Source: Clostridiaceae bacterium (GTDB lineage Bacteria > Bacillota > Clostridia > DSM-8532). From it: a stretch of DNA of 64,000 nucleotides. The stretch covers positions 1 through 64,000 of the forward strand of contig JAAXZX010000004.1 in assembly GCA_012719645.1 (NCBI GenBank), written 5' to 3'. A program made the position numbers and the translations under genes. The notes under the pieces are model-generated. The model made no database searches. It saw nothing but the letters and a program-made list of their open reading frames with translations, and was not told the DNA's origin. Shown piece after piece: positions 26,742 through 53,270 of the stretch; the first letter of the stretch is position 1; every line of letters starts with the position of its first letter.

Positions 26742-27012
26742 TGCCGTGCTAGACGGGGAGGTAGCGGTGCCCTGTATCCGCAATCCGCTATAGCGGAGTT
26801 GAACTCCTGCCCCCGGCATGCAAATGTAAGGTCTGTTATGCGGTTGAGTACAATGAAGATCGGGTCTTGCGCAATTCGGAGCCGTGAACCCCGTCAGGTC
26901 CGGGAGGAAGCAGCGGTAAGCGGTAAGCCGGGTGTGCCGCAAGCCAGCCTGGTCCGAGTATGACGCCCATGGTACGCTTGTATTTGCACTGTCAAAGGCA
27001 GGTGCACGGTTT
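26742..27012 (+). ncRNA. ffs: Signal recognition particle RNA, bacterial large (Bacillus-type)
   Basis: Conserved apical core GTCAGGTCCGGGAGGAAGCAGC, 5' GCCGTGCTAGACGGGGAGGTAGCGGTGCCCTGTA, closing pair GCCGTGC/GCACGG; immediately 5' of dnaX. Confidence 0.92.
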
Positions 27013-44793: not shown

Positions 44794-44868
44794 TCCCTGC
44801 ATATATTGGACGCCATGGCTGAATACCCTTGGTTATGGCAGGCCATAATATCCCATGGGGTGATTGGA

Positions 44869-45027
44869 ATGACGAAGAAGGATGAACAGCTCAAACTTGA
44901 AATAGCAAAGGAGCTGGGTTTATACGACAAGATCAGGGAACACGGATGGAAAAGCCTGAGCCCGAAAGAAACAGGCCGTATAGGGGGCATACTGTCCAGG
45001 AAAAAGAAATCGACACAGGCAGGGTGA
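44869..45027 (+). CDS. Small acid-soluble spore protein, SspF/alpha-beta-like
   Basis: KLEIAKELGLYDKIREHGWKSLSPKETGRIGGILSRKKK. Confidence 0.78.
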   Translation: MTKKDEQLKLEIAKELGLYDKIREHGWKSLSPKETGRIGGILSRKKKSTQAG

Positions 45028-45864: not shown

Positions 45865-46317
45865 GTGTTGGAGGAAACAGTGTTGGGAAGACGACAAGCA
45901 CGCGAACATGCGATGAAACTGCTATATCAGGTACAGATCCGCAAGGACGATCTTGACGGTCAAATACAGACATATATGGAAGAAGAGGCGATCCTGGAAT
46001 CGCCTGAGCGCGAATACATCGAGGATGTTGTCAAGGGCGCCGTAAACAGGCAGGATGAGATCGACGGCATTATCTCGCGCCATGCGAAGGGCTGGACCAT
46101 TTCCAGGATGCCCAAGGTGGACCTGGCCATCATGAGGCTCTGCATATACGAAATGCGCTGGCGGAAGGACATCCCTGTAAACGTATCGATAAACGAGGCT
46201 GTGGAATTGGCTAAGAAATACAGCGGAGAACAGTCCAAAACCTTTGTGAATGGCGTTTTGGGAAAGGTTTGGAGTGAGTTCTCCCAGGAAACCGGGGAAC
46301 CCAATGAACACGAATAG
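45865..46317 (+). CDS. nusB: Transcription antitermination factor NusB
   Basis: RRQAREHAMKLLYQ, LAIMRLCIYEMRWRKDIPVNVSINEAVELAKKYSGEQSKTFVNGVLGKV; start may be GTG/TTG nearer to RRQ. Confidence 0.93.
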   Translation: MLEETVLGRRQAREHAMKLLYQVQIRKDDLDGQIQTYMEEEAILESPEREYIEDVVKGAVNRQDEIDGIISRHAKGWTISRMPKVDLAIMRLCIYEMRWRKDIPVNVSINEAVELAKKYSGEQSKTFVNGVLGKVWSEFSQETGEPNEHE

Positions 46318-47530
46318 CCTTACGGTAAGGGAGCTTACAGCATATATCAAGCAGATGATCGACAGCGACATGCTGCTTTCAAACTTATGTGTCACAGGTG
46401 AGATTTCCAATTTCAAGCTTCACAGTTCCGGCCACATGTATTTTTCCCTGAAGGATCAGGACGCAGTAATCAGATGCGTAATGTTCCGGACCTACAACGC
46501 CCGCATGAAGTTCATGCCAGAGGAGGGCATGAAGGTCATAGTCAGGGGATATGTTTCGGTGTACGCCCCCGGCGGCACCTATCAGCTATATGCGGAGGAC
46601 ATGCAGCCCGATGGGACGGGGAGCCTGTACCTGGCTTTTGAGCAACTGAAACAGAAGCTTGAGGCACTGGGGTGGTTCGCCCAGGAGCGAAAGAAGCCCA
46701 TTCCCCGGCTGCCCCGTGCCATAGGCATTGTCACCTCGCCCACAGGGGCAGTTATCCGCGACATGCTGAATATCCTGCAGAGAAGGTACCCAAACATCCG
46801 GGTCATCATCTATCCTTCGGCCGTCCAGGGGCCGGAAGCACCGGTGCAGCTTATCAGGGGGATCAGGTATTTCAATGAAGCGCAGAATGTGGATGTCATC
46901 ATAATTGGAAGGGGCGGCGGATCAATCGAGGATCTCTGGCCCTTCAACGATGAGGGGCTCGCCCGGGCGATCCATGAATCAGGCATACCGGTCATCTCTG
47001 CCGTAGGTCATGAAACCGATTTTTCCATATCCGATTTCGTAGCAGACCTGAGGGCTCCAACCCCTTCCGCGGCAGCCGAGCTGGTGATCCCGGAAAAGGC
47101 GCTTTTAAAGGAGCGGCTCGCGATATATGAGAAGAACCTGGTCAGCAGCCTGTTGATGAAGCTGAAGAGGGAGAGGGAAAGGATAGCCGGCCTGTCATCC
47201 GCAAGGAGCATTGCCCGGCCTTTCGAGAGGATTTACACATTGAGGCAGCAACTGGATGGCAAACACCGGGAACTGATTCTGATAGGCAGGTCGAAGCTTG
47301 AAAGGCGCCGGTCTGCCCTGGGCAGCCTTGCCGGAAGGCTTGACGCCTTAAGCCCGCTTACGGTACTGTCACGGGGATATGCCATCGTCCAGAAGGCGGA
47401 TGGCAGCGTTGTAAAATCCATCCAGACCATGAAACCGGGGGAAAGGATAACGGTCAGGGTAGCCGACGGCCGGTTCAAGGCGCTGTTCGAGGAAGCGCTG
47501 GAGGCCTTTCCCGACAGGGTTGGGCAATGA
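46304..47530 (+). CDS. xseA: Exodeoxyribonuclease VII large subunit
   Basis: VTGEISNFKLHSSGHMYFSLKDQDAVIRCVMF; RGGGSIEDLWPFNDEGLARAI; ISAVGHETDFSISDFVADLRAPTPSAAAELV. Confidence 0.96.
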   Translation: MNTNSLTVRELTAYIKQMIDSDMLLSNLCVTGEISNFKLHSSGHMYFSLKDQDAVIRCVMFRTYNARMKFMPEEGMKVIVRGYVSVYAPGGTYQLYAEDMQPDGTGSLYLAFEQLKQKLEALGWFAQERKKPIPRLPRAIGIVTSPTGAVIRDMLNILQRRYPNIRVIIYPSAVQGPEAPVQLIRGIRYFNEAQNVDVIIIGRGGGSIEDLWPFNDEGLARAIHESGIPVISAVGHETDFSISDFVADLRAPTPSAAAELVIPEKALLKERLAIYEKNLVSSLLMKLKRERERIAGLSSARSIARPFERIYTLRQQLDGKHRELILIGRSKLERRRSALGSLAGRLDALSPLTVLSRGYAIVQKADGSVVKSIQTMKPGERITVRVADGRFKALFEEALEAFPDRVGQ

Positions 47531-47563
47531 GATGTGAATGGAGTGTGGGGTATGACAGGGATG

Positions 47564-47806
47564 CAAGATAGCCAGGAAAACAGGAACCTTACCTATGAAG
47601 AGGCCGCAGGCGAACTGGAAAAAGCCATAGCCGTGCTAGAGAAAGGGGATCTTCCCCTGGAGGAATCCATACAGGTCTTTGAAAAGGCTATTGGGCTGGT
47701 TCGCCTGTGCAATATGAAGCTGGATGAGATTGAAAAGAAGATCACCATTCTGGTTGAGGGAAAGGACGGAGTCAGGGAAACCGATTTTGAGCCTGACGCG
47801 GGATGA
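47564..47806 (+). CDS. xseB: Exodeoxyribonuclease VII small subunit
   Basis: LTYEEAAGELEKAIAVLEKGDLPLEESIQVFEKAIGLVRLCNMKLDEIEKKI; start uncertain (several in-frame ATGs). Confidence 0.92.
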   Translation, partial: QDSQENRNLTYEEAAGELEKAIAVLEKGDLPLEESIQVFEKAIGLVRLCNMKLDEIEKKITILVEGKDGVRETDFEPDAG

Positions 47807-48693
47807 TGGAGTATATTCAGGAATACAACCGGTACAGGAACCTAATTGAGGAATGGATCGGAAATCGTATAACCGTCCCCGGCCTGCCTGAGAGAAACCT
47901 TTTCGAAGCAATGAGATACAGCCTCATGGCAGGAGGAAAAAGGCTGCGTCCCGTGCTGTCGCTGGCAGTCTGCGACATGCTTGGGGGCGACATGGAGGAT
48001 GTCCTGCCCTTTGCCTGCGCCATTGAACTTATACATACTTATTCCCTGATCCATGATGATCTGCCGTGCATGGACAACGATGACTTCAGGAGAGGGAAGC
48101 CCACCAATCACAAGGTTTTCGGCGAAGCAAAGGCCGTTCTCGCAGGCGACGCGCTCCTCAACACAGCCTGTGAGATAATGCTGGACGAAGTGCTTGCCGA
48201 CAGGGATGAACCCCATATAAAAGCTGCAGCGGCGCGCATAATCATGGAAGCCGCGGGAGCCTCGGGCATGGTTGCGGGGCAGGTAATCGACCTGGAGTCC
48301 GAGGATGTCCCTGTTTCCTACGAGGTCCTGTGCCGTATGCACAGTCTTAAGACAGGTGCGTTGATCCGTGCCGGCATCCTTTCGGCGGCCAGGCTCTGCA
48401 AGGCTGATGAAAAGACCTGGGACGCCCTGGACCGCTATGGACGGCATATCGGGCTGGCCTTTCAGATTAAGGATGACCTTCTGGATCTCGAGGGCGACGC
48501 GGCGGTAACCGGAAAGAGCACCGGCAGCGATGAAAAAAAACATAAATCAACCTTTGTGACCATTCTTGGGGCAAAGAAGGCGAAAGAACTGCTTGAAGAA
48601 ACTGTCCGGGAGGCTGTCAGAGCCCTGGAGAACCTGAAGAATGCCGGTTTTTTAGCCAGGACTGCAGCCTATATCGCCGAAAGAGAGAAATAA
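47803..48693 (+). CDS. ispA: Farnesyl/geranyl diphosphate synthase
   Basis: IHTYSLIHDDLPCMDNDDFRRGKPTNHKVFGEA (first Asp-rich motif), LAFQIKDDLLDLEGD (second). Confidence 0.95.
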   Translation: MMEYIQEYNRYRNLIEEWIGNRITVPGLPERNLFEAMRYSLMAGGKRLRPVLSLAVCDMLGGDMEDVLPFACAIELIHTYSLIHDDLPCMDNDDFRRGKPTNHKVFGEAKAVLAGDALLNTACEIMLDEVLADRDEPHIKAAAARIIMEAAGASGMVAGQVIDLESEDVPVSYEVLCRMHSLKTGALIRAGILSAARLCKADEKTWDALDRYGRHIGLAFQIKDDLLDLEGDAAVTGKSTGSDEKKHKSTFVTILGAKKAKELLEETVREAVRALENLKNAGFLARTAAYIAEREK

Positions 48694-48742: not shown

Positions 48743-49186
48743 ATGCAAGTGACTTTTTTTGAGGAGATCATTAACAATAAGGCCTTGACACTGCCTGTTC
48801 TGTCCTGGTTCCTGGCCCAGTTATACAAATTCCTGCATTGCCTGGTGGTCAACAGGAAAATTGATTTTATGAAGTTTGTAAGCTCGGGGGGAATGCCCAG
48901 TTCCCACAGCGCCATTTCGGTCTGCCTGGCCACCATCATGGGGATGCAGTATGGCTTCGGGTCGGGTATTTTTGCCCTTGCAGTCATATTTGCGCTGGTT
49001 GTCATGGCCGACGCGGCGGGGGTGAGAAGGGCTGCGGGCAAACAGGCCGCCCTGCTCAACAAGCTGGCCAACTCCACCAGGGAGTTCCGGGCCGAAAAGG
49101 ACCTGAAGGAGCTTATAGGGCATACGCCGGTGGAAGTGTTGGCGGGGGCCGCATTGGGCATCCTGGTTGCGATAGCCTTTGCATAA
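48743..49186 (+). CDS. Divergent PAP2 family protein (YuiD-like)
   Basis: SSGGMPSSHSAISVCLATIMGMQYGFGSGIFALAVIFALVVMADAAGVRRAAGKQA...LKELIGHTPVEVLAGAALGILVA. Confidence 0.93.
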   Translation: MQVTFFEEIINNKALTLPVLSWFLAQLYKFLHCLVVNRKIDFMKFVSSGGMPSSHSAISVCLATIMGMQYGFGSGIFALAVIFALVVMADAAGVRRAAGKQAALLNKLANSTREFRAEKDLKELIGHTPVEVLAGAALGILVAIAFA

Positions 49187-49207
49187 CACCCCGGTTTGAT
49201 GTATAAT
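49179..49207 (+). promoter_or_regulatory. Putative promoter of OLE-like RNA
   Basis: TTGCAT-N17-TATAAT, about 14 nt before closing stem. Confidence 0.55.
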
Positions 49208-49213
49208 AATCAT

Positions 49214-49840
49214 CAAGATCATCAGGATGGCGCAGTATCCTAGTCAGTACTGCCTGGTTCGAAGACGGGCCTAAAAATCCGTTAAAGGGCATATCGATGA
49301 AGTTCCTTGTGCCGGCTTGTTACGCCCAGTGATGGGTCGGTGCTGGGAGTTAAGGTTTTGGGGCAGCCTGCAATGGCATGCAGGTGCGGACCCCTTTACC
49401 GCGGAGACCCTCATTCGTGGGAGACAGATTGCCTGCTTCGTGCAGTAAAAATCTTGACTACGATGGGGGATAGAACCTGTTTTGCGGTATCACTTTTGGT
49501 GCTGTGAGCAGTGTAGCCTGCCTTGAGTGCGGACCGGAGGATAGCGGATCAGGTGTTTATGTGCTGGCCGGCACATGAGCATTATCGCTGCTTGAAACCT
49601 TCCGTGCAAAAGAGGCTAGAACCAGGTAAGACTCCCGGGGAAAACCCCTAGGCTGTTGTTATCCAGGTATTCCGGGGATTGCAGTGTGTACTTAGTGGCA
49701 ATCAGGCTTTGAGAAGGGCAACCTCTCAACAGCGGGATTAAAGGGAAACCGCCGGAATGGCGACGTTCCGGTACCCTCTGGGGAAAACCTGCCTGACCTA
49801 AGACGCAAAATTTACTCGGAGTACTGCCATCCTGATTTTT
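49214..49840 (+). ncRNA. OLE (ornate, large, extremophilic) RNA candidate
   Basis: About 620 nt with no credible CDS; termini pair AUCAGGAUGGcgCAGUA (49221-49237) with UACUGCCAUCCUGAU (49822-49836) then U tract; synteny ispA...RNA-small membrane protein-dxs-tlyA matches OLE loci. Confidence 0.8.
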
Positions 49841-49918
49841 GTTGATTATTGCAAGAGAAACGTGTTATCGTTTCTCTTTGCTTTGATTGTTCGATTATTT
49901 TCCGAAAGCAGGATTTTT

Positions 49919-50569
49919 GTTTTGGGTAAAACGGACACCGAAAAGAAATATATGAAACAACTGGATAAGTATAAGAAGACCTCCAGGCAGAACATTCCGG
50001 TAAAAAGGAAAGCCGGCTTTGAAAAAAAGCATGTTCTATGGGGGATTTTTATTACCTGCGTTTCTTTTGCGCTGTCCATGCTGGTACTCTTCGCGTCTTC
50101 CGGGCTCCTGGGCTCAGCGCAGCCTGTCTTTGCCTTCATCGTAGTGCTGGTTATCATCGTCGCGGGAGTCGTATTCGATGTTATCGGCATTGCTGTCACG
50201 GCAGCCGATGAAACACCGTTTCATTCCATGGCGTCAAAGAAGATAAAGGGGGCCAGGCAGTCCCTGGTCCTGCTTCGCAACGCCCCGCGCGTGTCCAGTT
50301 TCTGCAATGATGTGATTGGCGATATATGCAGCGTGGTGAGCGGTGTAGCCGCAACTTCAATCGTTTACAAGGTATTTGCCACAAGCGGCAATATCTCGGT
50401 TATAGAAACCATTACGGGAGCATTGATAGCTGCGTTTACAGTGGGCGGAAAGGCCTTTGCGAAAAATATCGGCATGAACAACAGCAACTATATCGTTTTC
50501 TGGGTAGGCAGGTTTCTGTCCTGCTTCAGTTTCGGCAAGAGAAAAAAAGGTCAGGGGTGTTCTGGTTGA
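49919..50569 (+). CDS. OLE-associated membrane protein OapA candidate
   Basis: About 216 aa, multi-TM basic membrane protein directly 3' of the RNA and overlapping dxs; start uncertain (TTG near 49919 or ATG 49951). Confidence 0.72.
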   Translation, partial: VLGKTDTEKKYMKQLDKYKKTSRQNIPVKRKAGFEKKHVLWGIFITCVSFALSMLVLFASSGLLGSAQPVFAFIVVLVIIVAGVVFDVIGIAVTAADETPFHSMASKKIKGARQSLVLLRNAPRVSSFCNDVIGDICSVVSGVAATSIVYKVFATSGNISVIETITGALIAAFTVGGKAFAKNIGMNNSNYIVFWVGRFLSCFSFGKRKKGQGCSG

Positions 50570-52494
50570 GCCGGAATAATCATACCACGGAGATATTGAA
50601 AAGAGTTTCCGGACCCGAAGATCTGAAAAAGCTGAGCATGCGGGAGTTGAACGCTCTCAGCGGTGAAATACGGGATTTTCTTATAAGTACTGTGTCAAAT
50701 ACCGGGGGACACATTGCCTCCAATCTCGGTGTTGTGGAACTGACCATTGCCCTGCATCGTGTTTTTGATACCCCAAGGGACAGGATCATATGGGATGTGG
50801 GGCACCAGACCTATGTCCATAAGATCCTGACAGGAAGGAAGGAAAGGTTTAATACCCTCAGGCAGATGGACGGCCTTTCTGGATTCCCGAAATCCGCCGA
50901 GAGCGAATTCGATGCCTTCAACACAGGCCACAGTTCCACCTCCATCTCTGCTGCCCTTGGCATGGCCAGGGCCCGGGACCTTAAGGGTGAAAACTACTAT
51001 GTGGCGGCCGTGATAGGTGATGGAGCGCTTACAGGGGGCATGGCCTTTGAAGCCCTCAACGACGCTGGAAATGCCAGGACCAATCTCTTGATCATCCTCA
51101 ATGACAACGGCATGTCCATAGCCCAGAATGTGGGTGGGCTGTCCCGTTACCTGAGCCGGCTTCGCACGAGACCTTTCTACTATAAAACAAGGGAGTCCAT
51201 CCAGTCGCTGATCGACAGGCGACTTCCTAAGACCGGCAGGCATGTGCGCAGGTTCCTGCATCGCATTAAGGCAGCCATGAAGAGTATACTCGTGCCTTCC
51301 ATGTTCTTTGAGGACTTGGGCTTCAGGTATTTCGGCCCCATCGACGGGCATAATCTGCGGGAACTGATCACGGTCCTGGAACATGCCAGGACCATGAAAG
51401 GCCCTGTCCTCGTCCATGTCTGCACGCTGAAGGGGAAGGGGTATAAATACGCCGAGGAAAAGCCAAATGTGTTCCATGGCATAGCTCCTTTCGAGGTTGA
51501 GACCGGCGAATTGAAATCCAACGGCGGCGAAAGCTATTCGGAGGTCTTTGGCAGAAAGATCTGCGCGATTGCCCAAAGCAACCCGGGTGTTGTGGCCATT
51601 ACAGCCGCCATGCCCGACGGTACCGGCCTTAACCGCTTCAGGGAGTCATTCCCCAGGCGCTTCTTTGACGTGGGTATTGCTGAACAGCATGCGGTAACCT
51701 TTGCCGCAGGACTCGCCAAGGGAGGAGTCATACCTGTCGTGGCGATCTACTCCACGTTCCTCCAGCGCGCATATGACCAGATGCTCCATGACGTTGCCCT
51801 GCAGAACCTCCATGTGGTTTTTGCCATAGACCGGGCAGGAGTTGTGGGGGAGGACGGCGAAACCCACCAGGGTATTTATGATATAGCATATATAAAGACG
51901 ATGCCAAACTTTACACTCATGGCGCCCGCGTCGCCAAGCGAACTGGAAATGATGCTGGAGTATGCGGTTATGGAGCACAAAGGTCCTGTCGCTATCCGGT
52001 ATCCCCGCGGGACCGGCAGGGAGACAGATGCCCTGGGGCAGCCCATAAGGCCTGGAAAAGGTTTGGCAGTAAGACAGGGAGAGGATGTTACCATAGTTGC
52101 CGTTGGATATTTCCTGGACAGGGCGCTGAAAACCGCGGACCTCCTTGAGGCCGAAGGCATTAGCTGCGAAGTCATCAACCCCAGGTTTATCAAACCCATG
52201 GACGAGTCGCTTCTCAGGCAGTCCATCAGCAAAACGGGCAGGGTTGTCGTTATGGAGGACGGTATCATAAGCGGCGGTTTCGGCAGCAGCATCCTGGAAT
52301 TCACAAGCAGGGAACGCATCCAGGCTGAAACACTGCTTCTTGGGCTGCCCGATGAGGAGGTGCCCCACGGCTCCAGGAAGCTGATCTACGAAAAGTACGG
52401 GCTGGATCCCCAATCCATGAAGGACCGGATACGGGATTTCCTTGAAGCGTCGGGGGAGGGAGGCCGGGAATGGGCAAGGAACGTCTCGATGTGA
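50566..52494 (+). CDS. dxs: 1-deoxy-D-xylulose-5-phosphate synthase
   Basis: TGGHIASNLGVVELTIALHRVFDTPRDRIIWDVGHQTYVHKILTGR, FNTGHSSTSISAALGMA, IGDGALTGGMAFEALN, FDVGIAEQHAVTFAAGLA; TTG start 50566 with SD AGGGGTG (the ORF start at 50326 is too far upstream). Confidence 0.95.
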   Translation: MSRNNHTTEILKRVSGPEDLKKLSMRELNALSGEIRDFLISTVSNTGGHIASNLGVVELTIALHRVFDTPRDRIIWDVGHQTYVHKILTGRKERFNTLRQMDGLSGFPKSAESEFDAFNTGHSSTSISAALGMARARDLKGENYYVAAVIGDGALTGGMAFEALNDAGNARTNLLIILNDNGMSIAQNVGGLSRYLSRLRTRPFYYKTRESIQSLIDRRLPKTGRHVRRFLHRIKAAMKSILVPSMFFEDLGFRYFGPIDGHNLRELITVLEHARTMKGPVLVHVCTLKGKGYKYAEEKPNVFHGIAPFEVETGELKSNGGESYSEVFGRKICAIAQSNPGVVAITAAMPDGTGLNRFRESFPRRFFDVGIAEQHAVTFAAGLAKGGVIPVVAIYSTFLQRAYDQMLHDVALQNLHVVFAIDRAGVVGEDGETHQGIYDIAYIKTMPNFTLMAPASPSELEMMLEYAVMEHKGPVAIRYPRGTGRETDALGQPIRPGKGLAVRQGEDVTIVAVGYFLDRALKTADLLEAEGISCEVINPRFIKPMDESLLRQSISKTGRVVVMEDGIISGGFGSSILEFTSRERIQAETLLLGLPDEEVPHGSRKLIYEKYGLDPQSMKDRIRDFLEASGEGGREWARNVSM

Positions 52495-53270
52495 TCCTGG
52501 TGAAAAAGGGGTTGTTTGAGAGCAGGGAAAAGGCCAGGCGTGCCATCATGGCCGGTACGGTTTTTGTTGACGGGGAGCGTGTTGACAAGGCCGGTTCCCT
52601 GTGCGATCCGGATTCATCAATAACCATAAAGGATAATCCCGTCCCCTATGTGAGCAGGGGCGGGCTGAAGCTTGAGAAGGCCATCAGGGTTTTCAACGTG
52701 AACCTGGATGGCCTGATCTGCGTGGATGTAGGGGCTTCAACGGGCGGATTCACCGATGTAATGCTTAAAAGCGGCGCCAGCAAGGTTTACGCTGTTGATG
52801 TGGGTTACGGACAGCTTGCCTGGTCCCTCCGCAATGACCCGAGGGTTGTCTGCATGGAAAGGACCAACTTCCGCTATGTAAAGCCTGAAGACATAGGCGA
52901 GCCCGTTGATTTCGGGGCGGTGGACGTTTCGTTTATCTCCCTGAGGCTGATTCTGCCTCCCCTTAAGGCAGTCCTGAAAGAGGGGGCCCGGGCGGTCTGT
53001 CTTATAAAGCCCCAGTTCGAGGCCGGGCGTGAGAAGGTGGGGAAGAAGGGCGTGGTCAGGGATCCCGCCGTCCATGAAGAGGTCATAGCCGCTGTCATTG
53101 ACTCGGCCAGGTCCCTGGGATTCACGGTGGATGGCCTGTCCTGGTCCCCCGTCAAAGGGCCCGAGGGTAATATCGAGTACCTGCTTTGCCTTTCCAACAC
53201 TCAAACCCGCGATGAACCTGAGATCAACATCAAGGAAACCGTCGCCGCCGCCCACCGGGAACTGGACTGA
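52470..53270 (+). CDS. tlyA: TlyA family rRNA methyltransferase (YqxC-like)
   Basis: S4 domain RLDVILVKKGLFESREKARRAIMAGTVFVDG plus FtsJ-like VDVGASTGGFTDVMLKSGASKVYAVDVGYGQL. Confidence 0.94.
   Translation: MGKERLDVILVKKGLFESREKARRAIMAGTVFVDGERVDKAGSLCDPDSSITIKDNPVPYVSRGGLKLEKAIRVFNVNLDGLICVDVGASTGGFTDVMLKSGASKVYAVDVGYGQLAWSLRNDPRVVCMERTNFRYVKPEDIGEPVDFGAVDVSFISLRLILPPLKAVLKEGARAVCLIKPQFEAGREKVGKKGVVRDPAVHEEVIAAVIDSARSLGFTVDGLSWSPVKGPEGNIEYLLCLSNTQTRDEPEINIKETVAAAHRELD

Follow-up and report, generated by a model that had tools for sequence, protein, structure and literature searches.

OLE RNA, a large non-coding RNA of bacteria that resides with partner proteins at the cell membrane, has been linked to stress and energy roles in Halalkalibacterium halodurans (PMC9723947, PMC12265935), where the ole gene has a dedicated promoter and gives an RNA of about 630 nt (PMC9723947). 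Several of its structural elements have been assigned to contacts with protein or with a second RNA. The kink turn sits in J4a/5 (PMC9723947, PMC12286853), helix P13 is the OapB binding site (PMC9723947), and a bS21 site has been described in P6 of the H. halodurans RNA (PMC12054373), while the OLE dimer is held by an A-A contact at L4 and by a kissing loop at L9.3 (PMC12286853). The membrane protein partner OapA has a published, weak similarity to CNNM proteins (PMC11332333), and residues D100 and D104 of this protein are altered in the H. halodurans PM1 mutant (PMC9723947).

On the model built from work in H. halodurans and C. acetobutylicum, OLE RNA would be transcribed abundantly as an RNA of about 630 nt, would fold with the RNA-binding partners OapB and OapC, and would homodimerise through its A-rich and GGCC loops. 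OapA would then anchor the dimer at the membrane, and the resulting RNP would help the cell withstand alcohol, cold, Mg2+, and energy stress (PMC12286853, PMC12265935, PMC9723947). By homology alone, we infer that the RNA described here serves as a membrane-bound stress-response RNP.

The present locus resembles that of H. halodurans in its full-length architecture, its length, its neighbouring genes, and the OapA encoded downstream, and further in that its genome encodes OapB and OapC and that ole has a promoter-like box of its own. It differs from the H. halodurans type in that its P6 lacks the CCUCC mimic and that a hairpin specific to its genus lies between ole and oapA, and from the Rfam consensus in its larger P7 loop. 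With the Clostridium acetobutylicum OLE, solved as a dimer by cryo-EM (PMC12286853), it shares the A-rich L4 loop, the GGCC palindrome, and the kink-turn strand, all of which are intact here as sequence motifs. OLE variants 1 and 2, from the TANB77 and RF39 clades (PMC11332333), belong to the same family as this RNA, which unlike them is full-length, with P7, P8, P9, and the P13 OapB hairpin.

Identity and gene context of the RNA

The window, the whole 64,000-nucleotide stretch of DNA that was analysed, contains a gap between two protein genes that a sequence-only reading had assigned to an OLE RNA. That assignment is borne out by the full-length Rfam match, synteny, OapA, OapB, OapC, and covariation, and the gap almost certainly holds an OLE RNA gene of full length, accompanied by its cognate oapA. 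The locus is organized as follows.

45865-48693, + strand: nusB, xseA, xseB, and ispA, the usual ole neighbours
48743-49186, + strand: DUF212/divergent PAP2 protein (YuiD-like), the upstream neighbour
49178-49207, + strand: probable sigma-A type ole promoter, TTTGCA, 18 nt, TATAAT (-10 box at 49202-49207), from a consensus scan
49211-49846, + strand: ole, full-length OLE RNA gene (Rfam RF01071; structure covaries over 29 genomes)
49853-49878, + strand: hairpin with a T-rich tail after ole, a probable terminator or processing site, shared by all five genomes of the genus
49922-50569, + strand: oapA, 215 aa, with a probable TTG start and AGGA at 49910-49913; CNNM-like
50566-52494, + strand: dxs, the downstream neighbour
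52470-53270: tlyA, next after dxs

The covariance-model search that had been proposed as a check, here a cmscan of the whole window, returns OLE (RF01071) at 49211-49846 (+) over model positions 1-616 of 616, not truncated, with 520.5 bits and an E value of 8.6e-150. This match, one of two families over cut-off in the window, exceeds the curated cut-off of 50 bits by 470 bits. A permissive Rfam scan of the gap alone again recovers OLE and no other credible match; a GHRLOS match at 49638-49713 falls under its own cut-off and is meaningless. The earlier placement at 49214-49840 holds as to position; the Rfam match starts 3 nt before it and ends 6 nt after it, and the transcript probably runs from about 49214 to about 49840. 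The gap sequence folds more stably than its dinucleotide-shuffled versions (z = -5.5, with none of 20 reaching its level), the hairpin-capable segments previously noted are present, and the minimum-energy fold includes the terminal helix. Elsewhere in the window, at 26744-27009 (+), lies a full-length bacterial large SRP RNA (RF01854, 194.3 bits).

The flanking genes listed above are those that the sequence-only reading had named on both sides of the RNA, except that its YuiD-like neighbour is more exactly a DUF212/divergent PAP2 protein. Upstream of nusB, an alpha/beta-type small acid-soluble spore protein gene (44806-45027, +) points to a spore former.

Covariation and structural motifs

The conserved secondary structure of the RNA is backed by covariation. 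With the Rfam pairs mapped to 29 aligned OLE sequences (window and relatives), standard pairs occupy 90.1% of 4802 cells, terminal helix included, against 78.5% in shuffles and 39-48% in slid versions; 106 pairs have changed on both sides, as opposed to 62 in shuffles. The helices and motifs that matter for the comparison with known OLE RNAs are given below.

49221-49230, + strand: 5' strand of the terminal closing helix, supported by covariation and unpaired in the Rfam model
49827-49836, + strand: 3' strand of the terminal closing helix, supported by covariation, then UUUU
49233-49243, + strand: 5' strand, CAG(UAU)CCUAG, of the helix closing the 5' domain, with partner CUAGGCUG at 49648-49655; supported by covariation and unpaired in Rfam
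49264-49283, + strand: hairpin whose CCUAAAAA loop is the counterpart of the A-A dimer contact (L4) in the cryo-EM structure; motif in 29 of 29
49293-49304, + strand: AUCGAUGAAGUU, 5' side of the OapC-bound kink turn; motif in 29 of 29
49354-49400, + strand: helix P6, which in H. halodurans holds the bS21 site; the CCUCC anti-Shine-Dalgarno mimic is missing here
49433-49450, + strand: 18 nt in the P7 loop that the Rfam consensus lacks; relatives carry comparable insertions that vary
49566-49569, + strand: GGCC palindrome in the loop matching L9.3, the kissing loop of the OLE dimer; palindrome in 29 of 29
49750-49772, + strand: hairpin CGCCGGAAU-GGCGAC-GUUCCGGU at the position of P13, by analogy the putative OapB binding site; loop motif in 29 of 29

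The two ends of the RNA had been proposed to pair over about 15 bp, and this proposal is upheld for its outer part. The outer 10 bp show compensatory changes at 9 of 10 pairs, with 87% of cells pairing in relatives. The inner 5 bp (CAGUA with UACUG) are rejected: no pair has changed on both sides in relatives, and both strands are claimed by other conserved helices. Most of the 3' strand is taken up by an 11-bp helix (49666-49676/49815-49825) that is paired in 97% of cells and has 9 of 11 pairs changed on both sides, while the 5' strand has 49653-49655 as its partner, in a helix unbroken in all relatives whose sequence covers the region. The supposed 15-bp pairing therefore consists of 10 bp plus 5 competing bp. 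The helix 49233-49243/49648-49655 is paired in 100% of cells across the 29 sequences; in 13 of them U-A replaces a C-G pair. The Rfam model thus lacks both the terminal helix and the one closing the 5' domain, each of them well supported.

Among the protein-binding elements, the hairpin at the position of P13 (helix 21) has 7 of its 9 pairs changed on both sides. In P6, a CCUCCU mimic of the kind found in H. halodurans is not a family-defining feature. The CCUCC sequence is absent from P6 here and occurs in only 4 of the 29 OLE sequences, so binding of bS21, the gene for which is present in the genome, is uncertain. Altering the mimic with pairing kept did not abolish bS21 binding (PMC12054373).

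Expression, protein partners, and competing explanations

The consensus scan that gave the probable ole promoter found 3 promoter-like sites, where shuffles give 0.8. Of the 27 relatives with readable upstream DNA, nearly all carry TATAAT exactly, no more than 60 nt ahead of the terminal helix; the box reads TACAAT in one and sits further upstream in three genomes of one genus. The hairpin with a T-rich tail that follows ole suggests that most transcripts may stop there and that oapA may be reached by read-through.

OapA has at least four hydrophobic segments and scores 27.0 bits against PF01595 (CNNM), just under the cut-off of 28.4, as is expected from the weak published similarity (PMC11332333). 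Its gene most likely starts at TTG 49922, judging from the sequences of relatives, several of which conserve this TTG and the upstream AGCAGGA and not the later ATG. Asp130 and Asp134 are the sole invariant pair of aspartates spaced by four residues and, matched by this spacing, probably correspond to D100 and D104 of the H. halodurans protein.

Both RNA-binding partners are encoded in the genome. OapB (101 aa, G000:C2) was located by its position between map and infA and then confirmed against PDB 7k9b, "OLE-associated protein B" (E 1.6e-11); a KOW-domain search (PF00467) had returned only L24 and, by length, probably NusG. OapC (85 aa, G000:C125) is encoded upstream of rpsL and matches YbxF (E 1e-11). 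A second L7Ae-family protein (G000:C141) was rejected as OapC and is probably YlxQ, since its gene adjoins nusA and a YlxR-like frame. Ahead of the ybxF/oapC gene (L053:467-2165) lie an aminotransferase-like gene and a methyltransferase-like frame, and rpoC does not directly precede it.

Three other accounts of the gap can be weighed against this evidence. That it holds an overlooked small protein gene draws on its longest ORF, a 66-aa frame with a TTG start at 49307-49507. Counterparts of this frame in relatives stop after 17-96 codons, mostly 17 or 27, the start codon is often missing from them, and substitutions track base pairs rather than codons, which makes a small protein vanishingly improbable. 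No conserved ORF was found in the gap among the relatives, in agreement with the sequence-only reading, which had seen no credible ORF there and had warned that an ORF-only annotation misses the RNA. A protein-only annotation would indeed overlook this gene, and OLE is a case in which RNA models are needed for annotation.

The copy could instead be decayed, a pseudogene whose function has been lost, given that the genome is a draft and that ole has been lost in some lineages. This is very unlikely, as the copy shows no truncation, keeps 146 of the 158 model pairs standard, and has every motif that is invariant in the 29 genomes intact, while oapA has an open frame and shares 79-85% identity with its counterparts elsewhere in the genus. 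The adjacency and joint inheritance of ole and oapA, and the embedding of H. halodurans ole in a larger operon (PMC9723947), would also fit an RNA that serves oapA in cis, as a long leader or regulator, instead of standing on its own. The chance of this is slight: the RNA is closed by its own terminal helix, which in this genus is then followed by a terminator-like hairpin, there is no sign of a start-codon switch, and RNAs of the OLE family are known to be free and abundant. The ole of this window is a real gene and an ordinary member of a known RNA class.

Distribution and loss of OLE and OapA

OLE is found in 29 of 41 genomes and OapA in 31. The OLE core lies just upstream of oapA on the same strand in 75 of 80 named oapA loci, and the remaining five begin within 300 nt of a contig end. 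The nearest named genomes to the window are Thermoclostridium caenicola and related metagenome bins. The same locus is present in the cultured strain T. caenicola DSM 19027. The window adds a complete OLE locus in the Thermoclostridium group.

A closed genome of the same family (G012) lacks both ole and oapA. Its nusB-xseA-xseB-ispA-yuiD-dxs order is intact (L064 about 711-890, genes on the - strand), with 170-180 nt between the yuiD-like gene and dxs. Because this relative lives without both genes, the ole-oapA system is dispensable in the family. G012 carries one MpfA gene, as does each of three OLE-bearing congeners, so the loss came without an extra MpfA. Overall, MpfA occurs in 14 of 31 OapA-positive and 9 of 10 OapA-negative genomes (Fisher p = 0.025, ignoring relatedness), counts that agree with the published anticorrelation between OapA and MpfA (PMC11332333). 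No CorC_HlyC (MpfA) gene was found in the draft genome of the window.

Two genomes have OapA yet no OLE match. In one (G009) the apparent absence is discounted, the contig ending inside ole with 59 nt of the 3' end visible. The other (G030), a 0.9-Mb genome of the same class, encodes an OapA-like protein with 35% identity at L051:2371-2970 (+). Neither the Rfam model nor a P4-P6 core model detected OLE in G030, and a diverged copy could escape both. It is a tentative and rather doubtful proposal that OLE RNA and OapA form a unit that is lost cleanly and that OapA can also persist without the RNA; if true, G030 separates a membrane function of OapA itself from the RNA. Two natural contrasts bear on the long-standing question of OLE function: closely related genomes that differ in having the RNA, and the possible case of OapA on its own. 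The oapA-like gene of G030 sits between prolyl-tRNA synthetase-like and infC-like genes.
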